In this document: one piece after another, positions 97-8,891 of the stretch | Position numbering within the stretch: the first letter of the stretch is position 1 | Layout of the letters: each line of letters starts with the position of its first letter | Origin: Helicobacteraceae bacterium | GTDB taxonomy: Bacteria; Campylobacterota; Campylobacteria; Campylobacterales; SZUA-545 | Direction of reading: 5' to 3' | Length of the DNA: 33,331 nt | Assembly: GCA_031286325.1 (NCBI GenBank) | Contig: JAITUT010000095.1 | Span: forward strand, 1-33,331 | Position numbers and translations under genes: made by a program | Notes under the pieces: model-generated | What the model was told of the DNA's origin: nothing | Database searches by the model: none | Seen by the model: the letters and a program-made list of their open reading frames with translations, nothing else

Positions 97-1626
97 TTAA
101 AAAAGCTCCAGTTCGCCCGAATCGTCGTCCGCGACTACATCATAGTTTAGCAACATTGACTCAATTTGCATACACGAGCTAAGAAGCGAAGCGTCCAAAT
201 AGTGAATATCCGCCGTGCTCCGCCACGAAAATATCGTTAGCCGCCACTTGTTAATGTCTTCGTAAATTCCGCGCAATAACACGGCGATCAGATCGGGGTT
301 GAGCCTCCCTAAAGCCTCCTCGTCCGCGTGCGAAAACAACGCGCCCAGCGAAGAGAGCGCGTATGAAAGCGGCGCGAACTCGTAAAGTTGCGAGATAATC
401 CCCGCGTATCGCTGAAAAATTTCCCCGATTTGGCGCGTCTCGTCCGGGGACAATATCGGCGTATCCATAATGTCTAATAATTCGGCGTCTAGATCGCTCA
501 TATCTTGCACTACTTCAAAGTCCACAGACGTTAGAGTGGAGCAGTATTGCTCCGCCGAAATTTTATCGGCGTAGCTTTGCCTCAATAGCCGCTGCTCGTC
601 ATCGTCCGCCACGCGCGTTTGCGAGTGAACCGCGTCTGTTATAGATATGCGATCCACATCGGTTTTGCTTAAGCCCGTTTGATCGCTTGGCGTTTCTATA
701 ACAGGTTCAGGGGCGGACTCCTGTTTGGGAGGCGCTACGAAACTCTCGGCAATCTCTTCGCTCTCTTTGATCGCCCCGCTAACTTTTTTGTTCGGATCCT
801 CTATAATCGGCAGGTCTTTCGGCGGCGCGTCCGACTTATCGTTCTCAGCATTTAAGTCTATCTTAATGTATAGAAACTCTTCGTCAAATTGAATGTATTT
901 GCCCAGAATTTCGCGTTGCGGCTCGGTCAAATCATTTTCTGCGATCAATCCGTTAATTTGGATCATAAGGAATAGCGCGTCAAAGCTCTCTTCAACGAAA
1001 ACCATTGTCGGAATGTGGCGTTTGATCGCCTTGCCGACCTCGTTGTAGAGCAGGACATTCGCCTCGCGGAACGCGATACTCTGCGATTTTTGGTAGTACA
1101 TATAGCGTTGCGTAAGCCACAAAGAAAAGTCCATAAAGTCGTCTTCGCTAACGATGTGCGTGGTCGATCTAATGGCGCGGACATTGTTCGAAAAAGGATT
1201 TAAGACGTGCTTTTTGCTCAGAAAGTCGTCGCCTAAGGCATTATGCTTTAGGTGTATAAAATTTACGAAGTTTTCTATCTTCGCCCGCACGAATTTAAGG
1301 CTTTCGAAAGGTTTTTGAATATAGCTTGACGCGCCGTAGCGCCGCGTGGAGTCCTCCATAGCGTAATTTACGACGGCGGTTATTATGATCACTATAGTAT
1401 CGGGCGAAATTTCTTTAACGCGGCGGGTCGCCTCGTAGCCGTCCATAACAGGCATCATAATGTCCATTAGGACCAGATCGTAGCGGCGGCTTTGCGCTTT
1501 TTCCACCGCGATCGCGCCGTTTTCGGCTTGGTCAATCTCCAAACCCTCTATTTTGGCGCACGCCATCGCTATAAAAGCGCGCGATTCCTCCGTGTCGTCT
1601 ACGATCAGAAGCTTTAAGTTTTCCAT
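97..1626 (-). CDS. Response regulator: N-terminal receiver plus long unassigned C-terminal region
   Basis: Residues 1-125 are a CheY-like receiver: the acidic pair follows LLIV near the N-terminus, the phospho-acceptor Asp is D55 (LMDIMMP) and the conserved Lys is K105 (QKPF). After it comes about 150 residues of mixed helical sequence, an acidic Pro/Glu/Ser-rich linker (about 265-345) and a helical C-terminal domain that I do not recognise; no DNA-binding, GGDEF, EAL or kinase motif is visible. I chose the ATG at 1626 because an AGGTGGGG Shine-Dalgarno sits six bases upstream; an in-frame GTG at 1638 would overlap that site. The gene diverges from cheY across about 90 bases, so it probably belongs to chemotaxis or motility signalling and may accept phosphate from the adjacent CheA. 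That partner is inference; the receiver call is firm. Confidence 0.85.
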   Translation of the reverse strand: MENLKLLIVDDTEESRAFIAMACAKIEGLEIDQAENGAIAVEKAQSRRYDLVLMDIMMPVMDGYEATRRVKEISPDTIVIIITAVVNYAMEDSTRRYGASSYIQKPFESLKFVRAKIENFVNFIHLKHNALGDDFLSKKHVLNPFSNNVRAIRSTTHIVSEDDFMDFSLWLTQRYMYYQKSQSIAFREANVLLYNEVGKAIKRHIPTMVFVEESFDALFLMIQINGLIAENDLTEPQREILGKYIQFDEEFLYIKIDLNAENDKSDAPPKDLPIIEDPNKKVSGAIKESEEIAESFVAPPKQESAPEPVIETPSDQTGLSKTDVDRISITDAVHSQTRVADDDEQRLLRQSYADKISAEQYCSTLTSVDFEVVQDMSDLDAELLDIMDTPILSPDETRQIGEIFQRYAGIISQLYEFAPLSYALSSLGALFSHADEEALGRLNPDLIAVLLRGIYEDINKWRLTIFSWRSTADIHYLDASLLSSCMQIESMLLNYDVVADDDSGELELF

Positions 1627-1650
1627 AAACATCCCCACCTATGTTAGTGT

Positions 1651-2834: not shown

Positions 2835-3116
2835 ATGTATATTGACGGCGATAGACTCACAGTCGCGTTGGATTCGGATTTAGCCGAGGTGATAGACATC
2901 GCGAGCTTTGTGAAAGAGAGGATAGATTTTATAGAGGGCGTGGATTTGGAGGGCGAGGCGCGCGAGGAGTTTATGACTTCAGCGATCTTTCAGCTCCTAT
3001 GCGCTATGAAAGTGGCGAAGCCTTCATTAGACATTCCGCTCTTTTCAAGCGAGGGTTTGGCGCTTAAAAAATTTGGCGTGTTACATTGGGAGGCGGCATG
3101 GACAAAGAACAATTAA
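2835..3116 (+). CDS. Small STAS-like protein between cheW and cheA
   Basis: A 93-residue protein starting at an ATG with a GAGGAG Shine-Dalgarno. I do not see a decisive motif, but the order of elements resembles a STAS domain: an N-terminal strand (RLTVALDSDL), a helix (ASFVKERIDF), the strand VDLEG, then FMTSAIFQLLCAMKVA in the place of the signature loop plus helix, and a final PLFSSEGLALKKFGV strand-helix. Its last 19 bases overlap the start of cheA, so the two are probably translationally coupled. A STAS-like module beside a CheA could bind the kinase or regulate a receptor complex; that role is inference. Alternatively it is an uncharacterised small Che-operon protein. Confidence 0.65.
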   Translation: MYIDGDRLTVALDSDLAEVIDIASFVKERIDFIEGVDLEGEAREEFMTSAIFQLLCAMKVAKPSLDIPLFSSEGLALKKFGVLHWEAAWTKNN

Positions 3117-5206
3117 AAGCCATATTTATGGAAGAGGCGAGCGAGATCATTGAGAAACTCGACTCGGAAATCCTCAACTTTGAGGAGAACCCCTCTGATC
3201 GCGGCATCTTAAACGAACTATTCCGCGGCGTACACACATTAAAGGGCAGCGCGAACAGCTTCGGCTTCACGCGGCTGGGCAAATTCGTGCACCGCTTTGA
3301 GGATTCGCTCGACTATTACCGCAGCGGAAACGAGGAAGTTACCCCCGAAACGATCAACCTCTTTTTGGAAGCTGTTGATCTCGTAAAAGAGCTGATGGAT
3401 TACGAGACCGAAGGCAGAGGGGGCGAGCCCGAAAATTACACGCGTTGCCTTGACGCGATCAACGCGCTTTTGGAGGGCAAAGACGGAGCGCGCAAAGCGC
3501 CCGCCTCAGCCGCGTCCGCGCCGTCTAAAGATTTAGCGAAGGAATTTGGCGCGGCTCCGACTCCAAGCGCGAGCGCCGCAGCTCCCGTTCCGTCCGATCC
3601 CGCCGCAAGCGTTCCCGCGCCTGATCTCCCGCCGCTTGAAGACGGCGAACGGCTCTTTGCGATCACGCTTAAAACCGACAACGACATATATTTTCGCGGC
3701 TACGATCACGCGACATTTTTCAGACTCCTCGCTGAAAAGGGTCGCATAATCGACTCGCTTTGGGATTTGTCAAAGATCGTCGCGCTGGAAGAATTAAATA
3801 TCCAAAACTGCTTGATCGGCAATGTGGAGATCCGTTACGCGACTCGCGTGAAACTTGATGAAATTAAAGATATTTTTGAGTTTTTAGAGCCGAACGAATA
3901 CGAAGTATCCGAGGTCGCGCCGCCGCCGCCAGTTGCCGCAAAGGAAACTCCGAAAAAGGAGCCCGAGCGCGAGATAGAGAACCGTTTGCAAAAGAGCGAG
4001 CAAGCCGCCGCTTCGAGCGAAGCGCGCAAAGACGCGCCCAAAGAAGCCGTGCACGCCAGATCGTTCTTGAAAATTGACTCAAGCAAACTTGACGAGCTCT
4101 TTGACTCCATCGGCGAGCTTGTGATCGCGCAGAACTTTTTGAGCGAAAACAAGTTGGTTCGCGAGATAGACGACGACAATCTGCGAAAGACGATCGATAC
4201 CCTCTCCAAAACTACGCGCCTAATTCAAAACCGCGTTATGGGTTTGCGTATGGTGCCGATCAAAGACACATTTGAAAAGATGCGCCGAGTTATGCACGAC
4301 GCCTCCAAAAAACTCGGCAAAAATATCAAATTGGTCGTAACGGGCGAGGACACCGATATTGATAAAACAATGGTTGATCAGTTAGGCGATCCGCTCATTC
4401 ACTTGATCAGAAACTCTATAGATCACGGCATTGAGATGACAAGCGAAGAGCGCGTGAAAGCCGGCAAAAACGCCGAGGGCGTCGTAAATTTGCGCGCTTA
4501 TCACAAGGGCGGCTCAATCGCGATTGAAGTCGCCGACGACGGTCGCGGCATTAACCGCGAAAAGGTACTGAAAAAGGCGATAGAGCGCGGTTTGGCGCGC
4601 GAGGGCGATAAACTCTCCGATCAGCAAATCGATAGCTTGATAATGCAAGCGGGCTTTTCAACCGCCGATCAGATCAGCGATATTTCAGGGCGCGGCGTGG
4701 GTCTTGACGTGGTGCGATCGAGCATTGAGGCGATGCACGGCAAAATTGAGATAGATTCAATTCCCGGCAAGGGCAGCTCGTTTAGGATTCTCTTGCCGCT
4801 TACGCTCGCGATCATAGACGGAATGTTGGTGCGCAGCGGATCGGATATATTTATCTTGCCCACGCTCTCTATCGTTGAGTCTATGCGACCTACCACCGAC
4901 ATTGTGCATACCGCGCAGGATAAAGGCGAGTTTGTGAATTTGCGCAGCGAGCTTCTGCCTGTGGTGCGCCTAAACCGCAAACTAAACCTTGACGATCGTA
5001 TGCCGCCTATAGAGGAGAGCACATTGGTTTGCGCTGAAAACGAACGCGGACGCTTCGCCGTGCTGGTCGATGAGCTAATAGGTCGCCAGCAAGTCGTGAT
5101 TAAGCCGCTCGGCAATCATCTAGCGAAGTTCAAAGAGATCAGCGGCGGCGCGGTAATGGGCAACGGCGAAGTCGCGCTGATTATCAACATTGAGGGGCTT
5201 TACTAA
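3098..5206 (+). CDS. cheA: CheA chemotaxis histidine kinase without C-terminal receiver
   Basis: A 702-residue class II histidine kinase. In order: an HPt (P1) domain with phospho-His H46 (VHTLKGSA); an Ala/Pro-rich linker; a P2-like domain around residues 180-270 that would dock CheY or CheB; a second charged linker; the P3 dimerisation helices (about 325-390); the ATPase domain with N-box LIHLIRNSIDHGIE (about 430), G1 VADDGRGIN (about 480) and G2 SGRGVGLDVV (about 530); and a C-terminal CheW-like domain ending NIEGLY. No receiver follows, unlike the CheA-receiver fusions of Campylobacter jejuni and Helicobacter pylori. The ATG at 3098 has a GGGAGG Shine-Dalgarno; an upstream in-frame TTG would lie on it. 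The stop overlaps the cheR ATG by one base (TAATG). Confidence 0.96.
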   Translation: MDKEQLKAIFMEEASEIIEKLDSEILNFEENPSDRGILNELFRGVHTLKGSANSFGFTRLGKFVHRFEDSLDYYRSGNEEVTPETINLFLEAVDLVKELMDYETEGRGGEPENYTRCLDAINALLEGKDGARKAPASAASAPSKDLAKEFGAAPTPSASAAAPVPSDPAASVPAPDLPPLEDGERLFAITLKTDNDIYFRGYDHATFFRLLAEKGRIIDSLWDLSKIVALEELNIQNCLIGNVEIRYATRVKLDEIKDIFEFLEPNEYEVSEVAPPPPVAAKETPKKEPEREIENRLQKSEQAAASSEARKDAPKEAVHARSFLKIDSSKLDELFDSIGELVIAQNFLSENKLVREIDDDNLRKTIDTLSKTTRLIQNRVMGLRMVPIKDTFEKMRRVMHDASKKLGKNIKLVVTGEDTDIDKTMVDQLGDPLIHLIRNSIDHGIEMTSEERVKAGKNAEGVVNLRAYHKGGSIAIEVADDGRGINREKVLKKAIERGLAREGDKLSDQQIDSLIMQAGFSTADQISDISGRGVGLDVVRSSIEAMHGKIEIDSIPGKGSSFRILLPLTLAIIDGMLVRSGSDIFILPTLSIVESMRPTTDIVHTAQDKGEFVNLRSELLPVVRLNRKLNLDDRMPPIEESTLVCAENERGRFAVLVDELIGRQQVVIKPLGNHLAKFKEISGGAVMGNGEVALIINIEGLY

Positions 5207-6060
5207 TGCTAGGTCCGCAAAATATCTCTATGGAGGAGTTCAGGCTCTTTCAGAAATACGTTTTTGATAATATGGGGATTACTCTCGCCGATCACAAGAT
5301 TACGCTTGTGCAAGGGCGTTTGTCTAAAAGGTTGCGCGTCCTGAATATCCCCAGTTACAGAGAGTATTACAAATATGTAATAAACGACAAAAGCGGCGAG
5401 GAAGAGGACGAAATTTTTGACCTTATCAGCACCCATGTTACGGAGTTTTTCCGCGAAAAGGGTCAGTGGGATTACCTAAACGAGAATTTAGAGCACATTT
5501 TGGAGAAGAAGCGCGATAAGAGAATCAGGATTTGGTCGGCGGCGTGCTCAACGGGCGAAGAGCCCTATTCGCTGGCGATCTTTTTGCACGGCAAAATGCC
5601 CGATTGGGCGCAGTGGGATATTAAAATTTTGGCTACCGATCTCTCAAAAGTCGTGATTCGCAAAGCCGCGCGCGGCGTCTATCGCGAGGACGATGTGGGC
5701 GGCGGTCAAAAGGGAATTAAAAATGTCCCGCGCCATATTTTAGGCTCCTATTTTGAGCTGCTCAAAACCGAAAGCGGCGAACGCGCATACAGGATCATAG
5801 AAGAGATGAAAAGACCGATGACGTTCCGCACATTTAATCTCGTCTATGGCGATTTCAAGCCATTCGTCGAGAAGTTCGACATAATTTTCTGTCGCAATAT
5901 GATGATTTACCTTGACCCCGAAGCGCAGCGCAAACTCGTCAGCAACTACCACAGAGCGCTTGTGCCGGGCGGGTTTTTGTTTGTGGGGCATAGCGAATCT
6001 TTGACCCAAAACAAAGATGAATTTAAGCTCATCAAACCATCTATTTACCAAAAGATTTGA
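5206..6060 (+). CDS. cheR: CheR chemoreceptor glutamate methyltransferase
   Basis: A 284-residue S-adenosylmethionine-dependent methyltransferase, the usual CheR length. The N-terminal helical domain (about 1-75) leads to STHVTEFFRE (75-84), then the SAM-binding motif RIWSAACSTGEEPYSLAI (108-125), the acidic strand ILATDLS and the catalytic-domain end DIIFCRNMMIYL followed by GGFLFVGHSESL. It methylates receptor glutamates for adaptation and is paired here with cheB and cheD. The start overlaps the cheA stop by one base, with GAGGGG upstream as ribosome site. No TPR or pentapeptide-binding extension is visible. Confidence 0.95.
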   Translation: MLGPQNISMEEFRLFQKYVFDNMGITLADHKITLVQGRLSKRLRVLNIPSYREYYKYVINDKSGEEEDEIFDLISTHVTEFFREKGQWDYLNENLEHILEKKRDKRIRIWSAACSTGEEPYSLAIFLHGKMPDWAQWDIKILATDLSKVVIRKAARGVYREDDVGGGQKGIKNVPRHILGSYFELLKTESGERAYRIIEEMKRPMTFRTFNLVYGDFKPFVEKFDIIFCRNMMIYLDPEAQRKLVSNYHRALVPGGFLFVGHSESLTQNKDEFKLIKPSIYQKI

Positions 6061-6070
6061 AAGGCGGGCA

Positions 6071-6967
6071 ATGGAAATCCACGAGTTTGACGACACTACG
6101 ATCCTAGCGGATCTCTCGCGTAGGCTGAACGAAAAGAACGTTTCGATTCGTGAAATGGAGTTTATGACGAAAAAACTCTTGGCGCTAAACGAGCAAGCGC
6201 GCGAAGCGGAGTCGATCAAGAGCAAATTTCTCTCGCTCATTAAAAACGAGTTTAACAACCCTATGAGCTCTCTTCTGAACCTTGCGAGCGCGCTCGTCAA
6301 ATGCACCGAGCAAGAGCAATTCGAACGTATTACGAGAATGCTCAACGGCGAGCTTTTGCGGCTGGATTTCCAACTTAAAAATATCTTTGCCACGACCGAA
6401 ATCGAAGAGGGTCAAATCGGCAGCCACTACTCGTACATTTCCTTCAAAGCAGTCTTTGAGGATGTAACCTCATCGCTCAAATACGCTATAGAGGACAAAA
6501 ATTTGAGCGTGGAGGTTTTGCATTGCGATACCGACGTTTTTGCCTCTGACGCGAGCAAAATTTATTTGATCTTGCTTAATTTGCTCTCAAACGCTTGCGA
6601 GTATTCACATTGCGACTCCAAGATCGGCGCGTATTTGCGCAAAGACGACAAATTTATCTATCTTTATGTGGAGGACGCGGGCGAGGGCATCAACGTCAAG
6701 CACGCGATGGAGATTTACGATCGCTTCGCTAAATTCATCAGCAAAAACCGCCGATCTTCAGGGCTTGGGCTTGGGCTTTCGGTAGTGCGCGGACTTACCG
6801 AGTCGCTTGACGGCGAGGTGAGTTTCAAAAGCGTGGAGAACAACACGATATTCTGCGTGAAACTCCCGATCGTAACGGGCGAAGTTACCAGCGGCGCGAT
6901 CGACGCGGAAACTTTCTTGTTTGACGACTTCTCAAACAACGCTGGCGAAGAGATGAGGGAGTTATGA
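6071..6967 (+). CDS. Soluble histidine-kinase-like protein with Asn in place of the phospho-His
   Basis: A 298-residue protein with no membrane segment or sensory domain. A short coiled coil (about 12-50) leads to an H-box-like segment, FLSLIKNEFNNPMSSL; aligned with the usual FLxxxSHELRTPLxxL, the position of the phospho-accepting His is N59. The ATPase domain looks intact: N-box LLNLLSNACEYS, G1 VEDAGEGI, F-box YDRFAKF and G2 SSGLGLGLSVVRGL. The ATG at 6071 has a GGCGGG-like ribosome site; an upstream in-frame start lies inside cheR. It sits between cheR and the HEAT-like ORF and overlaps the latter by ATGA. It may act as a nucleotide-dependent regulator or scaffold of CheA, or as a phosphatase or trans kinase; autophosphorylation at the standard site seems excluded. 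Confidence 0.85.
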   Translation: MEIHEFDDTTILADLSRRLNEKNVSIREMEFMTKKLLALNEQAREAESIKSKFLSLIKNEFNNPMSSLLNLASALVKCTEQEQFERITRMLNGELLRLDFQLKNIFATTEIEEGQIGSHYSYISFKAVFEDVTSSLKYAIEDKNLSVEVLHCDTDVFASDASKIYLILLNLLSNACEYSHCDSKIGAYLRKDDKFIYLYVEDAGEGINVKHAMEIYDRFAKFISKNRRSSGLGLGLSVVRGLTESLDGEVSFKSVENNTIFCVKLPIVTGEVTSGAIDAETFLFDDFSNNAGEEMREL

Positions 6968-7266: not shown

Positions 7267-7302
7267 AAATTGTTTATTTTGCAATCGGGCGGGGGGCTTA
7301 AA

Positions 7303-7857
7303 TTGGAACTCCAGAACGCGCATTCACACTCTACCACGCAAACGACTGTGCAAGCGGTGCAACAGGCGTTGCACCGCACGACGCAACAGGTGTTAAAGCG
7401 CAAATTTATCAATGTGGGCGAAATTTATGTCTCAAAAGAGCCTATGGAGATCGCGACCGTGCTCGGATCGTGCGTGGGAATCGCGCTATACGATCGCGTG
7501 GAGAAGATCGGCGCGTTAAATCACTATTTGTTGCCGCTTTGGAACGGAAACGGCTTACAGAGCCCGAAGTTCGGCAACATTTCGATTCCCAAAATGATCG
7601 AGCAAGCGTTAAGAGCCGGCGCGAGCATACAAAATATGGAGGCGAAAATTTTCGGAGGCGCGAACATTAACCAAACCAACTTGGAGAATATGATGATAGG
7701 TAAAAAAAATATAATAATCGCCCGAGAAATTCTGGCGCAAAACAAAATTCCCGTAGTAGCCGAAGATGTGGGCGGCTTTCGCGGGCGCAGAATCGTAATG
7801 CGCAGCGACACCAATAAGGTGCTTTTAAGATATGCGGGCGAAGAGGACAAAAAATGA
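7303..7857 (+). CDS. cheD: CheD chemoreceptor glutamine deamidase
   Basis: A 184-residue CheD with its catalytic triad visible: T52, C57 in TVLGSCVGIALYD and H74 in GALNHYLLP, with the family-typical 17-residue Cys-His spacing. Later family segments are IFGGANI and DVGGFRGR. CheD deamidates receptor glutamines and often binds a CheC-type phosphatase; no CheC is seen here. The start is uncertain. I chose the TTG at 7303, which has a GGGGGG tract six bases upstream; an in-frame TTG at 7270 and internal GTG codons are possible. About 35 residues of Gln/Thr/His-rich sequence precede the conserved FINVGEIYVSKEP start of the domain, longer than in minimal CheDs. The stop overlaps cheB by ATGA. Confidence 0.9.
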   Translation: MELQNAHSHSTTQTTVQAVQQALHRTTQQVLKRKFINVGEIYVSKEPMEIATVLGSCVGIALYDRVEKIGALNHYLLPLWNGNGLQSPKFGNISIPKMIEQALRAGASIQNMEAKIFGGANINQTNLENMMIGKKNIIIAREILAQNKIPVVAEDVGGFRGRRIVMRSDTNKVLLRYAGEEDKK

Positions 7858-8891
7858 TTAGAGTTTTGGTGATAGACGACAGCGCGACGGCGCGCGCGGT
7901 GGTGCAGAATATTTTGGAGAGCGATCCTGAAATCCAAGTGGTGGGCGTGGCGAAAAACGCCTTTGAGGGGCGCGACAAAGTCGTGGAGCTTCGTCCCGAT
8001 GTGATCTGTCTTGATGTGGAAATGCCGCGAATGGACGGCGTAACATTTTTGCAAAAACTTATGCAATATGTGCCGACTCCAGTCGTAATGGTCTCGTCTT
8101 TAACGCGCAACGGGGCGGCGGTTACATTAGACGCGCTGGAAGCGGGCGCGGTGGATTACGTCGCGAAGCCCAGCAGCTATATCTACGATCGCGGATCGGC
8201 GATTGAGCAAGAGCTGCTCGAAAAAGTCCATTCCGCCGCAAAGGCGAAAGTCCTGCCGCGCAAACCCGCCGTGAAACCGCAAATAGCGACATTAAAAGCG
8301 CTTAGCGAAACTACGCAAAAACTCATTGCGATCGGCGCGTCTACGGGCGGCACCGAAGCGCTTAAAGAAGTCCTAATCCGTATGCCGCGCAACAGCCCTG
8401 GGATCGTGATTGTGCAACATATGCCCGCGAGTTTCACGGGTCCGTTCTCGCAGCGGCTTAATTCGCTTTGCGAAATTGATGTCCGCGAGGCGAAAAACGG
8501 CGACAGCGTCTCGACGAGCCAAGCGTTAGTCGCGCCCGGCGATCAGCACATGGTCTTGCGCAGGAGCGGCGCGCGCTATTATGTGGAGCTTGGCGGCGGG
8601 GATAAAGTTTCGGGGCATCGCCCCAGCGTAGATGTTTTGTTTAACTCTGTGGCGCAAAACGCGGGAGCAAACGCCGTCGGCGTGATTTTGACGGGTATGG
8701 GCGCGGACGGCGCGCAAGGAATGCGCAAAATGCACGACGCGGGCGCGAAGACGATCGCGCAGGACGAAAAAACCTGCGTGGTATTCGGTATGCCGAAAGT
8801 CGCGATTGAGCTAGGCGGCGTGGATAAGATCGTGCCGCTTGATTTCGTCCCGGAGACCGCGTTGCAATTTATTTCGGACATCAGCCACTAG
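7854..8891 (+). CDS. cheB: CheB receptor methylesterase/deamidase with receiver domain
   Basis: A 345-residue two-domain CheB. The receiver (1-120) has D8-D9 and phospho-acceptor D54 (ICLDVEMP). After a linker comes the methylesterase with the Ser-His-Asp triad: S163 in IGASTGG, H189 in VQHMP and D285 in GMGADG. It removes methyl groups from receptor glutamates when phosphorylated by CheA. The start overlaps the cheD stop (ATGA). Keeping the receiver is notable because Campylobacter jejuni CheB lacks one. Five bases separate its stop from the next ORF. Confidence 0.96.
   Translation: MIRVLVIDDSATARAVVQNILESDPEIQVVGVAKNAFEGRDKVVELRPDVICLDVEMPRMDGVTFLQKLMQYVPTPVVMVSSLTRNGAAVTLDALEAGAVDYVAKPSSYIYDRGSAIEQELLEKVHSAAKAKVLPRKPAVKPQIATLKALSETTQKLIAIGASTGGTEALKEVLIRMPRNSPGIVIVQHMPASFTGPFSQRLNSLCEIDVREAKNGDSVSTSQALVAPGDQHMVLRRSGARYYVELGGGDKVSGHRPSVDVLFNSVAQNAGANAVGVILTGMGADGAQGMRKMHDAGAKTIAQDEKTCVVFGMPKVAIELGGVDKIVPLDFVPETALQFISDISH

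Follow-up and report, generated by a model that had tools for sequence, protein, structure and literature searches.

Why should a chemotaxis operon encode a protein with the fold of a histidine kinase in which the phospho-acceptor histidine is replaced? The question is raised by a 33,331-nt stretch of DNA (here called the window) from a Helicobacteraceae bacterium, whose genome of 2.05 Mb (98% complete) carries such a gene directly after cheR. A sequence-only reading of the window had proposed that the protein is not a kinase but a nucleotide-controlled regulator of the chemoreceptor array. Comparison with its relatives confirms, as far as sequence can, a conserved pseudo-histidine kinase tied to chemoreceptor adaptation, and it points to the adaptation enzymes as the part of the pathway that the protein might serve.

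A kinase-like gene in a che operon

The cluster runs in the order cheY, cheW, a 93-aa ORF, cheA, cheR, the pseudokinase, a 100-aa HEAT-like ORF, cheD and cheB (Table 1), with AAGGCGGG just 5' of the pseudokinase ATG. The sequence-only reading placed the gene between cheR and cheD; the order stands, but in the window the HEAT-like ORF, which overlaps the pseudokinase stop codon (ATGA), separates the gene from cheD. A search of the window's genome finds no second copy of this small ORF, and 68/70 core loci (defined below) leave no room for it between pseudokinase and cheD. For cheD the first start codon was taken, and the real start may lie later. The 93-aa ORF (2835-3116), between cheW and cheA, has no Pfam match; it may be a STAS protein, a label suggested by the letter S used in PMC9239204. 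The large response regulator upstream consists of a receiver domain followed by ~390 residues in which nothing reaches a Pfam cut-off.

Table 1. Features of the window discussed in the text, with position, strand and basis of assignment
Feature	Position	Strand	Basis
Large response regulator, C-terminus SGELELF	97-1638	-	Pfam; divergent, upstream of the che genes
cheA; Hpt, dimer, ATPase and CheW domains, no receiver match	3086-5206	+	Pfam
cheR; beta-subdomain loop no shorter than that of S. Typhimurium CheR, which binds the pentapeptide	5206-6060	+	Pfam, alignment
Pseudo-histidine kinase gene, 298 aa	6071-6967	+	ORF, Pfam, AlphaFold2
Codon of Asn59 (AAC), phospho-acceptor position	6245-6247	+	Alignment of orthologues
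Codons of Asn63-Pro64; Asn63 at the Thr/Asn phosphatase position	6257-6262	+	Alignment; PMC3510030 (available part)
Codon of Asp202, which opens the G1 box	6674-6676	+	Alignment
G2 box GLGLGLS, residues 231-237	6761-6781	+	Alignment
C-terminal acidic tail ETFLFDDFSNNAGEEMREL, residues 280-298	6908-6964	+	Comparison with core orthologues
Small HEAT-like ORF, 100 aa	6964-7266	+	Pfam HEAT matches under cut-off
cheD, 'short' type, without C-terminal hydrophobic tail	7270-7857	+	Pfam, alignment
cheB with N-terminal receiver domain	7854-8891	+	Pfam

Pfam recognises the ATPase domain of the 298-aa protein (HATPase_c, 60.3 bits against a cut-off of 26.4) and gives HisKA 18.1 bits, under its cut-off of 26.9; no sensor domain, PAS included, is matched. 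The AlphaFold2 model (alignment A1; mean pLDDT 85.8, pTM 0.77) predicts a long helix at residues 8-77 and a second at 81-112, which make up the coiled coil and DHp, followed by a GHKL ATPase domain. Past ~residue 270 the predicted tail is of low confidence, with a short helix at 279-284. Foldseek returns HK853 complexes, YycG and DivL structures at E values of 2e-17 or less, and a profile search of solved structures returns similar kinds, including DivL and RetS. Its profile match and histidine-kinase-like predicted fold place the protein in the superfamily that joins HATPase_c to DHp. DivL (4q20) ranks third in Foldseek (E 6e-18); with ~20% identity to that structure and no PAS match, the window protein lies outside the DivL family proper.

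A family without the histidine

Relatives were collected from a scan of genome contigs (17 loci), 14 genomes of the same family (13 with a match), 298 of the order and 397 of the phylum. The contig scan, a peptide-pattern search with the window protein, found all of its 17 loci in Campylobacterota. In a plasmid scan 27/51 records were covered at 80% or more, and those listed are generic kinases at 25-28% identity. On a profile (A1) built from 41 relatives, full-length orthologues score >280 bits, six distant members 147-208 bits and ordinary kinases at most ~150 bits. Matches of at least 280 bits, made non-redundant by their last 120 residues, form the core set (n = 70), from which the fragments L034 and L064 are left out; the distant members (L072, L073, L074, L135, L140 and L141) are counted separately. 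The control kinases (n = 33) are matches of 45-150 bits and >240 aa, of which the window's genome supplies three; this set leaves out weaker kinases, among them L003 of that genome.

In a gap-free alignment of the H-box, FLSLIKNEFNNP of the window protein stands against FLANMSHEIRTP of a canonical kinase (L075), with Asn59 in the histidine column. The KNEFNNP box of the sequence-only reading, with N59 for His, is thus borne out against HEIRTP-type boxes. That reading had asked whether the Asn is fixed among orthologues, and had named His in most of them, or a conserved His elsewhere in the dimerisation helix that is shown to be phosphorylated, as findings that would speak against it. Position 59 is N in 61, S in 8, Y in 1 and H in none of the 70 core orthologues, and no other conserved His appears in the alignment, the best column (position 74) reaching 21/70. 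Of the six distant members, five carry N there and one E. Because His is found in 0/70 core orthologues and in 32 of the 33 ordinary histidine kinases of the fetched loci, chance is excluded. The sole exception among the controls is a canonical-type kinase (L083, 3181-4692, minus strand) that reads FTQELKTP, with Gln for His.

In a maximum-likelihood tree a single branch (support 99/99) parts the 76 pseudokinases from the ordinary kinases, so one early loss of the histidine is the simplest history, provided that the tree is rooted within the ordinary kinases. Judged by eye, Asn has changed to Ser or Tyr more than once along this tree and never to His.

Two positions beside the lost histidine have separate tasks in HisKA kinases, according to the available part of PMC3510030. 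The acidic residue adjacent to His serves the kinase reaction only (CrdS E372), and the Thr or Asn at +4 serves the phosphatase reaction only (CrdS N375), for which it is held sufficient alone. Among the core orthologues the first position is relaxed (E60 is present in the window protein, and E in 41/70), and the second is N in the window protein and either N (65) or D (5) in the 70; P64, S55, F53 and N104 are invariant (70/70). With His in none of the orthologues, a relaxed acidic neighbour and no conserved His elsewhere, the view of the protein as a regulator and not a kinase is well supported.

The same pattern (H 0/70, E60 41/70, N63 65/70 with D in 5) also fits a dedicated response-regulator phosphatase, in which Asn63 would orient water to hydrolyse the phosphorylated Asp of CheB or CheY and the tail would do no more than help to find the target. 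The protein resembles the bifunctional HisKA kinases CrdS, HK853 and EnvZ in fold, in alignment and in an Asn at the phosphatase-only position, and differs from them in the absent His, the relaxed acidic neighbour and the want of a sensor-domain match. We consider this role unlikely, if less so than the other rivals discussed below. Asn63-Pro64 may be kept for helix geometry, with Asp at 63 in five orthologues, and in some HisKA proteins the His itself can aid phosphatase activity. Of the pseudokinases that have been studied DivL is the nearest; in the available text of PMC4211667 it binds DivK~P, is neither a kinase nor a phosphatase, and binds ATP weakly. CheZ-like matches, almost always under the Pfam threshold, occur in pseudokinase genomes as well (e.g. 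G001, G011 and G017), which leaves no obvious need for a second phosphatase of flagellar CheY. CheZ has a tail that helps it find its target. The idea that the protein stands in for CheZ was not taken up for the same reason; at E <= 1e-3, CheZ-like matches are found in 98/298 genomes, 1 of them over the Pfam cut-off.

The ATPase domain was read from the window as having its N, G1, F and G2 boxes kept. All four are present in the window protein, which, to judge from them, may bind ATP. Across the family the N-box residues N170 and N174 and the G2 glycines G231, G233 and G235 are each found in 70/70 core orthologues, but G1 position 202, Asp in the window, is Asp in 32/70 and Asn in 38/70, and the third G1 glycine (Gly206) is altered in 27/70. 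Because these two G1 residues are changed in many orthologues, nucleotide control is unlikely as a function common to the whole family, and the 'nucleotide-controlled' part of the original proposal is not supported for the family as a whole.

These residues bear as well on a split kinase, in which the ATPase domain would act in trans on a histidine carried by a partner, such as the P1 domain of CheA; CheA3 and CheA4 of R. sphaeroides divide their labour in this way, according to the available part of PMC6829392. The N, G1 and G2 boxes of the window protein are consistent with such a role. The G1 Asp is changed in over half of the family, however, E60 is relaxed, and the pseudokinase is present where a cluster CheA was not found (below), which together make a split kinase very improbable.

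Pairing with short CheD and the adaptation enzymes

In the 397 Campylobacterota genomes, 97 CheD places lie over the Pfam cut-off, of which 53 are 'short' (profile match from position 10 or later) and 44 'long' (from position 1-3). A same-strand pseudokinase (189 bits or more) lies within 1.7 kb of 53/53 short CheD places and of 0/44 long ones, and conversely each of the 53 pseudokinase places, spread over 50 genomes, has a short CheD; the 97 places are not independent events, because whole operons share descent, and the pairing may reflect few events, with two operon types inherited whole. Both CheD types occur in six genomes (G140, G170, G200, G210, G453 and G462), and there the pseudokinase pairs with the short type only. 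The two genes are also close neighbours, the cheD ORF starting at -34 to +18 nt from the pseudokinase stop in 68/70 core loci. The two exceptions are L008, with its first cheD start codon at -85, and the window, at +303, where the HEAT-like ORF intervenes.

Long CheD proteins carry a C-terminal hydrophobic tail in 43/43 read, of 44 (the motif missed L227), with ends of the M[ED]IELF or TLF/ILF type (e.g. MEIELF, DITLF and GVILF; L142-L149, L211-L246). On the CheD of pseudokinase loci such a tail is found in 0/74. A tail on CheD and a pseudokinase beside CheD are thus complementary, which suggests that the pseudokinase may replace the cis tail in trans. As a partner encoded with CheD it recalls the CheC-CheD pair, but CheC has a fold other than that of histidine kinases. 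The CheX phosphatase has an ExxN motif (PMC3510030, available part).

That the gene is a functionless, decaying relic of a histidine kinase is scarcely credible. The H-box is eroded further in sister species of the window's genus (SAFSNP, SSFSNP), and the copy in G032 (L064) is broken into ORFs of 218 and 77 aa, as decay might leave them. Against decay stand the 19 invariant columns of the 41-sequence alignment, together with the constant closeness to cheD and the unbroken pairing with its short type.

Sister genomes suggest which part of the pathway the gene belongs to. In six of six same-genus sisters (G005-G010) CheA matches do not exceed 38% identity, against 70% in G003, a member of the same family; the sisters are draft assemblies in which a missing gene could be unassembled. 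In the five sisters searched for the cluster receptor (G007 not among them), the best matches lie at ~1e-27 to 1e-30 and none is of the cluster type; a search of six further genomes of the family gives 1e-93 to 1e-136. The same five retain cheR-pseudokinase-cheD-cheB, and G007 has cheR-pseudokinase at a contig edge. Persistence without the cluster CheA and receptor would tie the pseudokinase to the adaptation enzymes and not to CheA or the receptor.

This bears directly on the original proposal of a nucleotide-controlled regulator of CheA and the receptor array. The complete ATP boxes of the window protein, the N-box Asn and G2 glycines kept throughout the core set, and a cheA that shares the locus in many mapped cases all speak for it. 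With G1 altered across much of the family and the gene kept in sisters where the cluster CheA and receptor were not found, we regard it as improbable; regulation survives from that proposal, but its object is less likely to be the array than the adaptation enzymes, given the five sisters and the pairing with CheD.

Among those enzymes, CheB stands out. Its gene lies within 3 kb downstream of the pseudokinase in 67/70 core loci; one of the exceptions (L132) is cut by the contig end, and in the other two (L017 and L109) neither cheR nor cheB was found beside the pseudokinase, only cheD. A receiver motif is present in 93/106 CheB ORFs. Because it is encoded nearby and usually bears a receiver, CheB would be the protein most likely to dock on the kinase-like body.

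Several clusters hold further genes. In four loci of Sulfurimonadaceae (L061, L065, L071 and L137) a gene for a 454-459-aa protein separates cheR from the pseudokinase gene; the L061 protein, the one examined, has a PAS domain by Pfam. Downstream of cheB in L053-L056, L059, L060, L085, L087 and others lies a canonical histidine kinase (THELKTPLNAI) that adjoins a large response regulator, and here a true kinase and a pseudokinase share one cluster. The 'histidine kinase' in the legend of a published cluster, as far as the available part of that source goes, is probably the pseudokinase gene, or else the canonical kinase further on in some clusters.

The acidic tail and a possible role

An E[FLMI] ending is found in 69/70 core orthologues, against 19/1142 other ORFs of the loci, and in none of the six distant members. 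Receptors in the same clusters end FPL..DL[KR]EF, with 43 distinct DL[KR]EF tails in the loci, and a search of six further genomes of the window's family finds DLKEF or DMKEF receptors of this kind in all six. In the window's genome, for which receptor tails were read genome-wide, DLKEF is present on 0/12 readable receptor C-termini, of 13 receptor ORFs. A cluster-type receptor fragment at a contig edge of the same genome (contig C82, L162; 45% identity over its end) has a diverged C-terminus without DLKEF.

Likeness between these tails and those of receptors is uneven. On a position-specific receptor-tail score, 4/70 pseudokinase tails lie above all 1141 other proteins and 7/70 above the 99th percentile of those proteins, and 28/70 beat 95% of their own shuffles. 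The top-scoring tails are DMKEF/EMKEF types of Sulfurospirillaceae. The window's EMREL is not significant as receptor-like, 12.5% of shuffles being as good, and neither are the NAVEL and DAIEL types on this score. Receptor mimicry as a property shared by all clades was thus not upheld, and the window's own tail is among those that do not show it.

The best-scoring other proteins are mostly response regulators that end D[LI]E[LF]F or alike. An ending of the SGELELF kind is found on 39/54 ORFs classed as large response regulators in the fetched loci. A pattern search of the whole window genome for that ending gives nine stop-terminated frames; 97-1638 is the one long ORF among them, and the other eight have 6-89 residues. 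An ending class of 22/105 that mixes pseudokinases with ordinary kinases was left out.

The beta-subdomain loop of CheR, counted on alignments, has 14 residues in the window, 13 in S. Typhimurium and 10 in P. aeruginosa CheR1. It has at least 13 residues in 60/74 and is shorter in 14/74, among them L016 and L042 with 9; L016 has its short loop though its receptor ends DLKEF. By analogy, DLKEF is probably a CheR tether, because the Geobacter receptor ends DWKEF (class 36H) and EFEKF (class 34H) each go with their own CheR group in the available part of PMC2577667. Activated CheB binds the receptor pentapeptide too, according to the available text of PMC8609364.

The pseudokinase tail is like the receptor pentapeptide tethers (NWETF, DWKEF) in its position at the extreme C-terminus, in the low-confidence acidic stretch before it and in its hydrophobic last residue; unlike them, it sits on a non-receptor protein. 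It also falls outside the strict xZxxZ pattern (Z = F/W/Y, in the available part of PMC7390727), because its second position is L, M, A, V and alike and its last residue F, L, M or I (EMREL in the window; typically DMKEF, DAIEL or NAVEL). In an Arcobacteraceae genome whose receptor tails were likewise read throughout (G461), 9/20 receptors end [DE]W[ET]SF, unlike the MEIELF that ends the long CheD of the group, so two tail codes may exist.

The reading that we favour, at somewhat less than an even chance, is that the pseudokinase, without His-based phosphoryl transfer, is an accessory subunit of a CheR-CheD-CheB adaptation module, with CheB docking to it and its tail acting as a tether. The protein would have given up both making and passing phosphoryl groups by way of its own histidine. 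Its DHp/ATPase body would be retained as a dock for a receiver domain, in the way that DivL takes up DivK~P; the CheB receiver would be the likeliest, and those of CheY and the large response regulator would be alternatives. The body might read the phosphate on CheB, and perhaps remove it through Asn63. The tail might tether the pseudokinase to CheR, to activated CheB or to both at the site for the receptor pentapeptide, and the pseudokinase with its co-translated CheD would recruit CheR and CheB or compete with receptors for them. Nucleotide binding would be a modifier at most.

In its way of working, a DivL-like protein is the best reading of the sequences. Both have the DHp and HATPase_c fold of a kinase put to another use, and in both the phospho-acceptor His is replaced family-wide, by Tyr in DivL and by Asn or Ser in the che pseudokinase; receiver binding would be the property carried over. 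They differ in that DivL has PAS domains and a cell-cycle role with DivK and CckA, and the che pseudokinase is small, soluble and paired with CheD.

A more specific form of the favoured reading makes the pseudokinase both a tether in trans and a reader of phosphorylation: its dead body would bind the CheB receiver, its receptor-like tail would bind CheR and also activated CheB, and CheD would be carried along. This form is doubtful as a whole. It would have a docking code common to receptor DLKEF, the pseudokinase, the response-regulator D[LI]E[LF]F and, elsewhere, CheD MEIELF.

If the pseudokinase acts on CheR, CheD or CheB, it would be an extra controller of receptor adaptation beyond the standard scheme. 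Its family would be an old and conserved one in chemotaxis, easily mistaken for ordinary histidine kinases. It might also serve as a natural test of which parts of a histidine kinase survive under selection for receiver binding, maybe with dephosphorylation, and for nothing more. Pseudo-histidine kinases are little studied, DivL being the recurring case in the literature. Besides confirming that the loss of His is fixed in the family, the analysis adds the pairing with short CheD, the persistence with cheR, cheD and cheB, and the conserved acidic tail; in the available parts of the open-licence literature neither the replaced histidine of this protein nor its tail or its link to CheD is mentioned. 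CheO of Campylobacter jejuni was set aside, the available part of its paper giving it other partners and making no mention of a HATPase, as were the Hmr proteins of Caulobacter, a phrase match (PMC11481889, available part).

The receptor tails suggest a cluster class that is F7-like for the core set and F8-like for a distant subgroup. Three loci of distant members (L072, L073 and L140) show a second kind of che cluster, in the order cheR, cheY, pseudokinase, cheD. Their pseudokinases end LD[SA]FMFD and, like that of L135, keep the Asn, and the receptors of this kind of cluster (L072, L073, L140 and L135) end xF..F.
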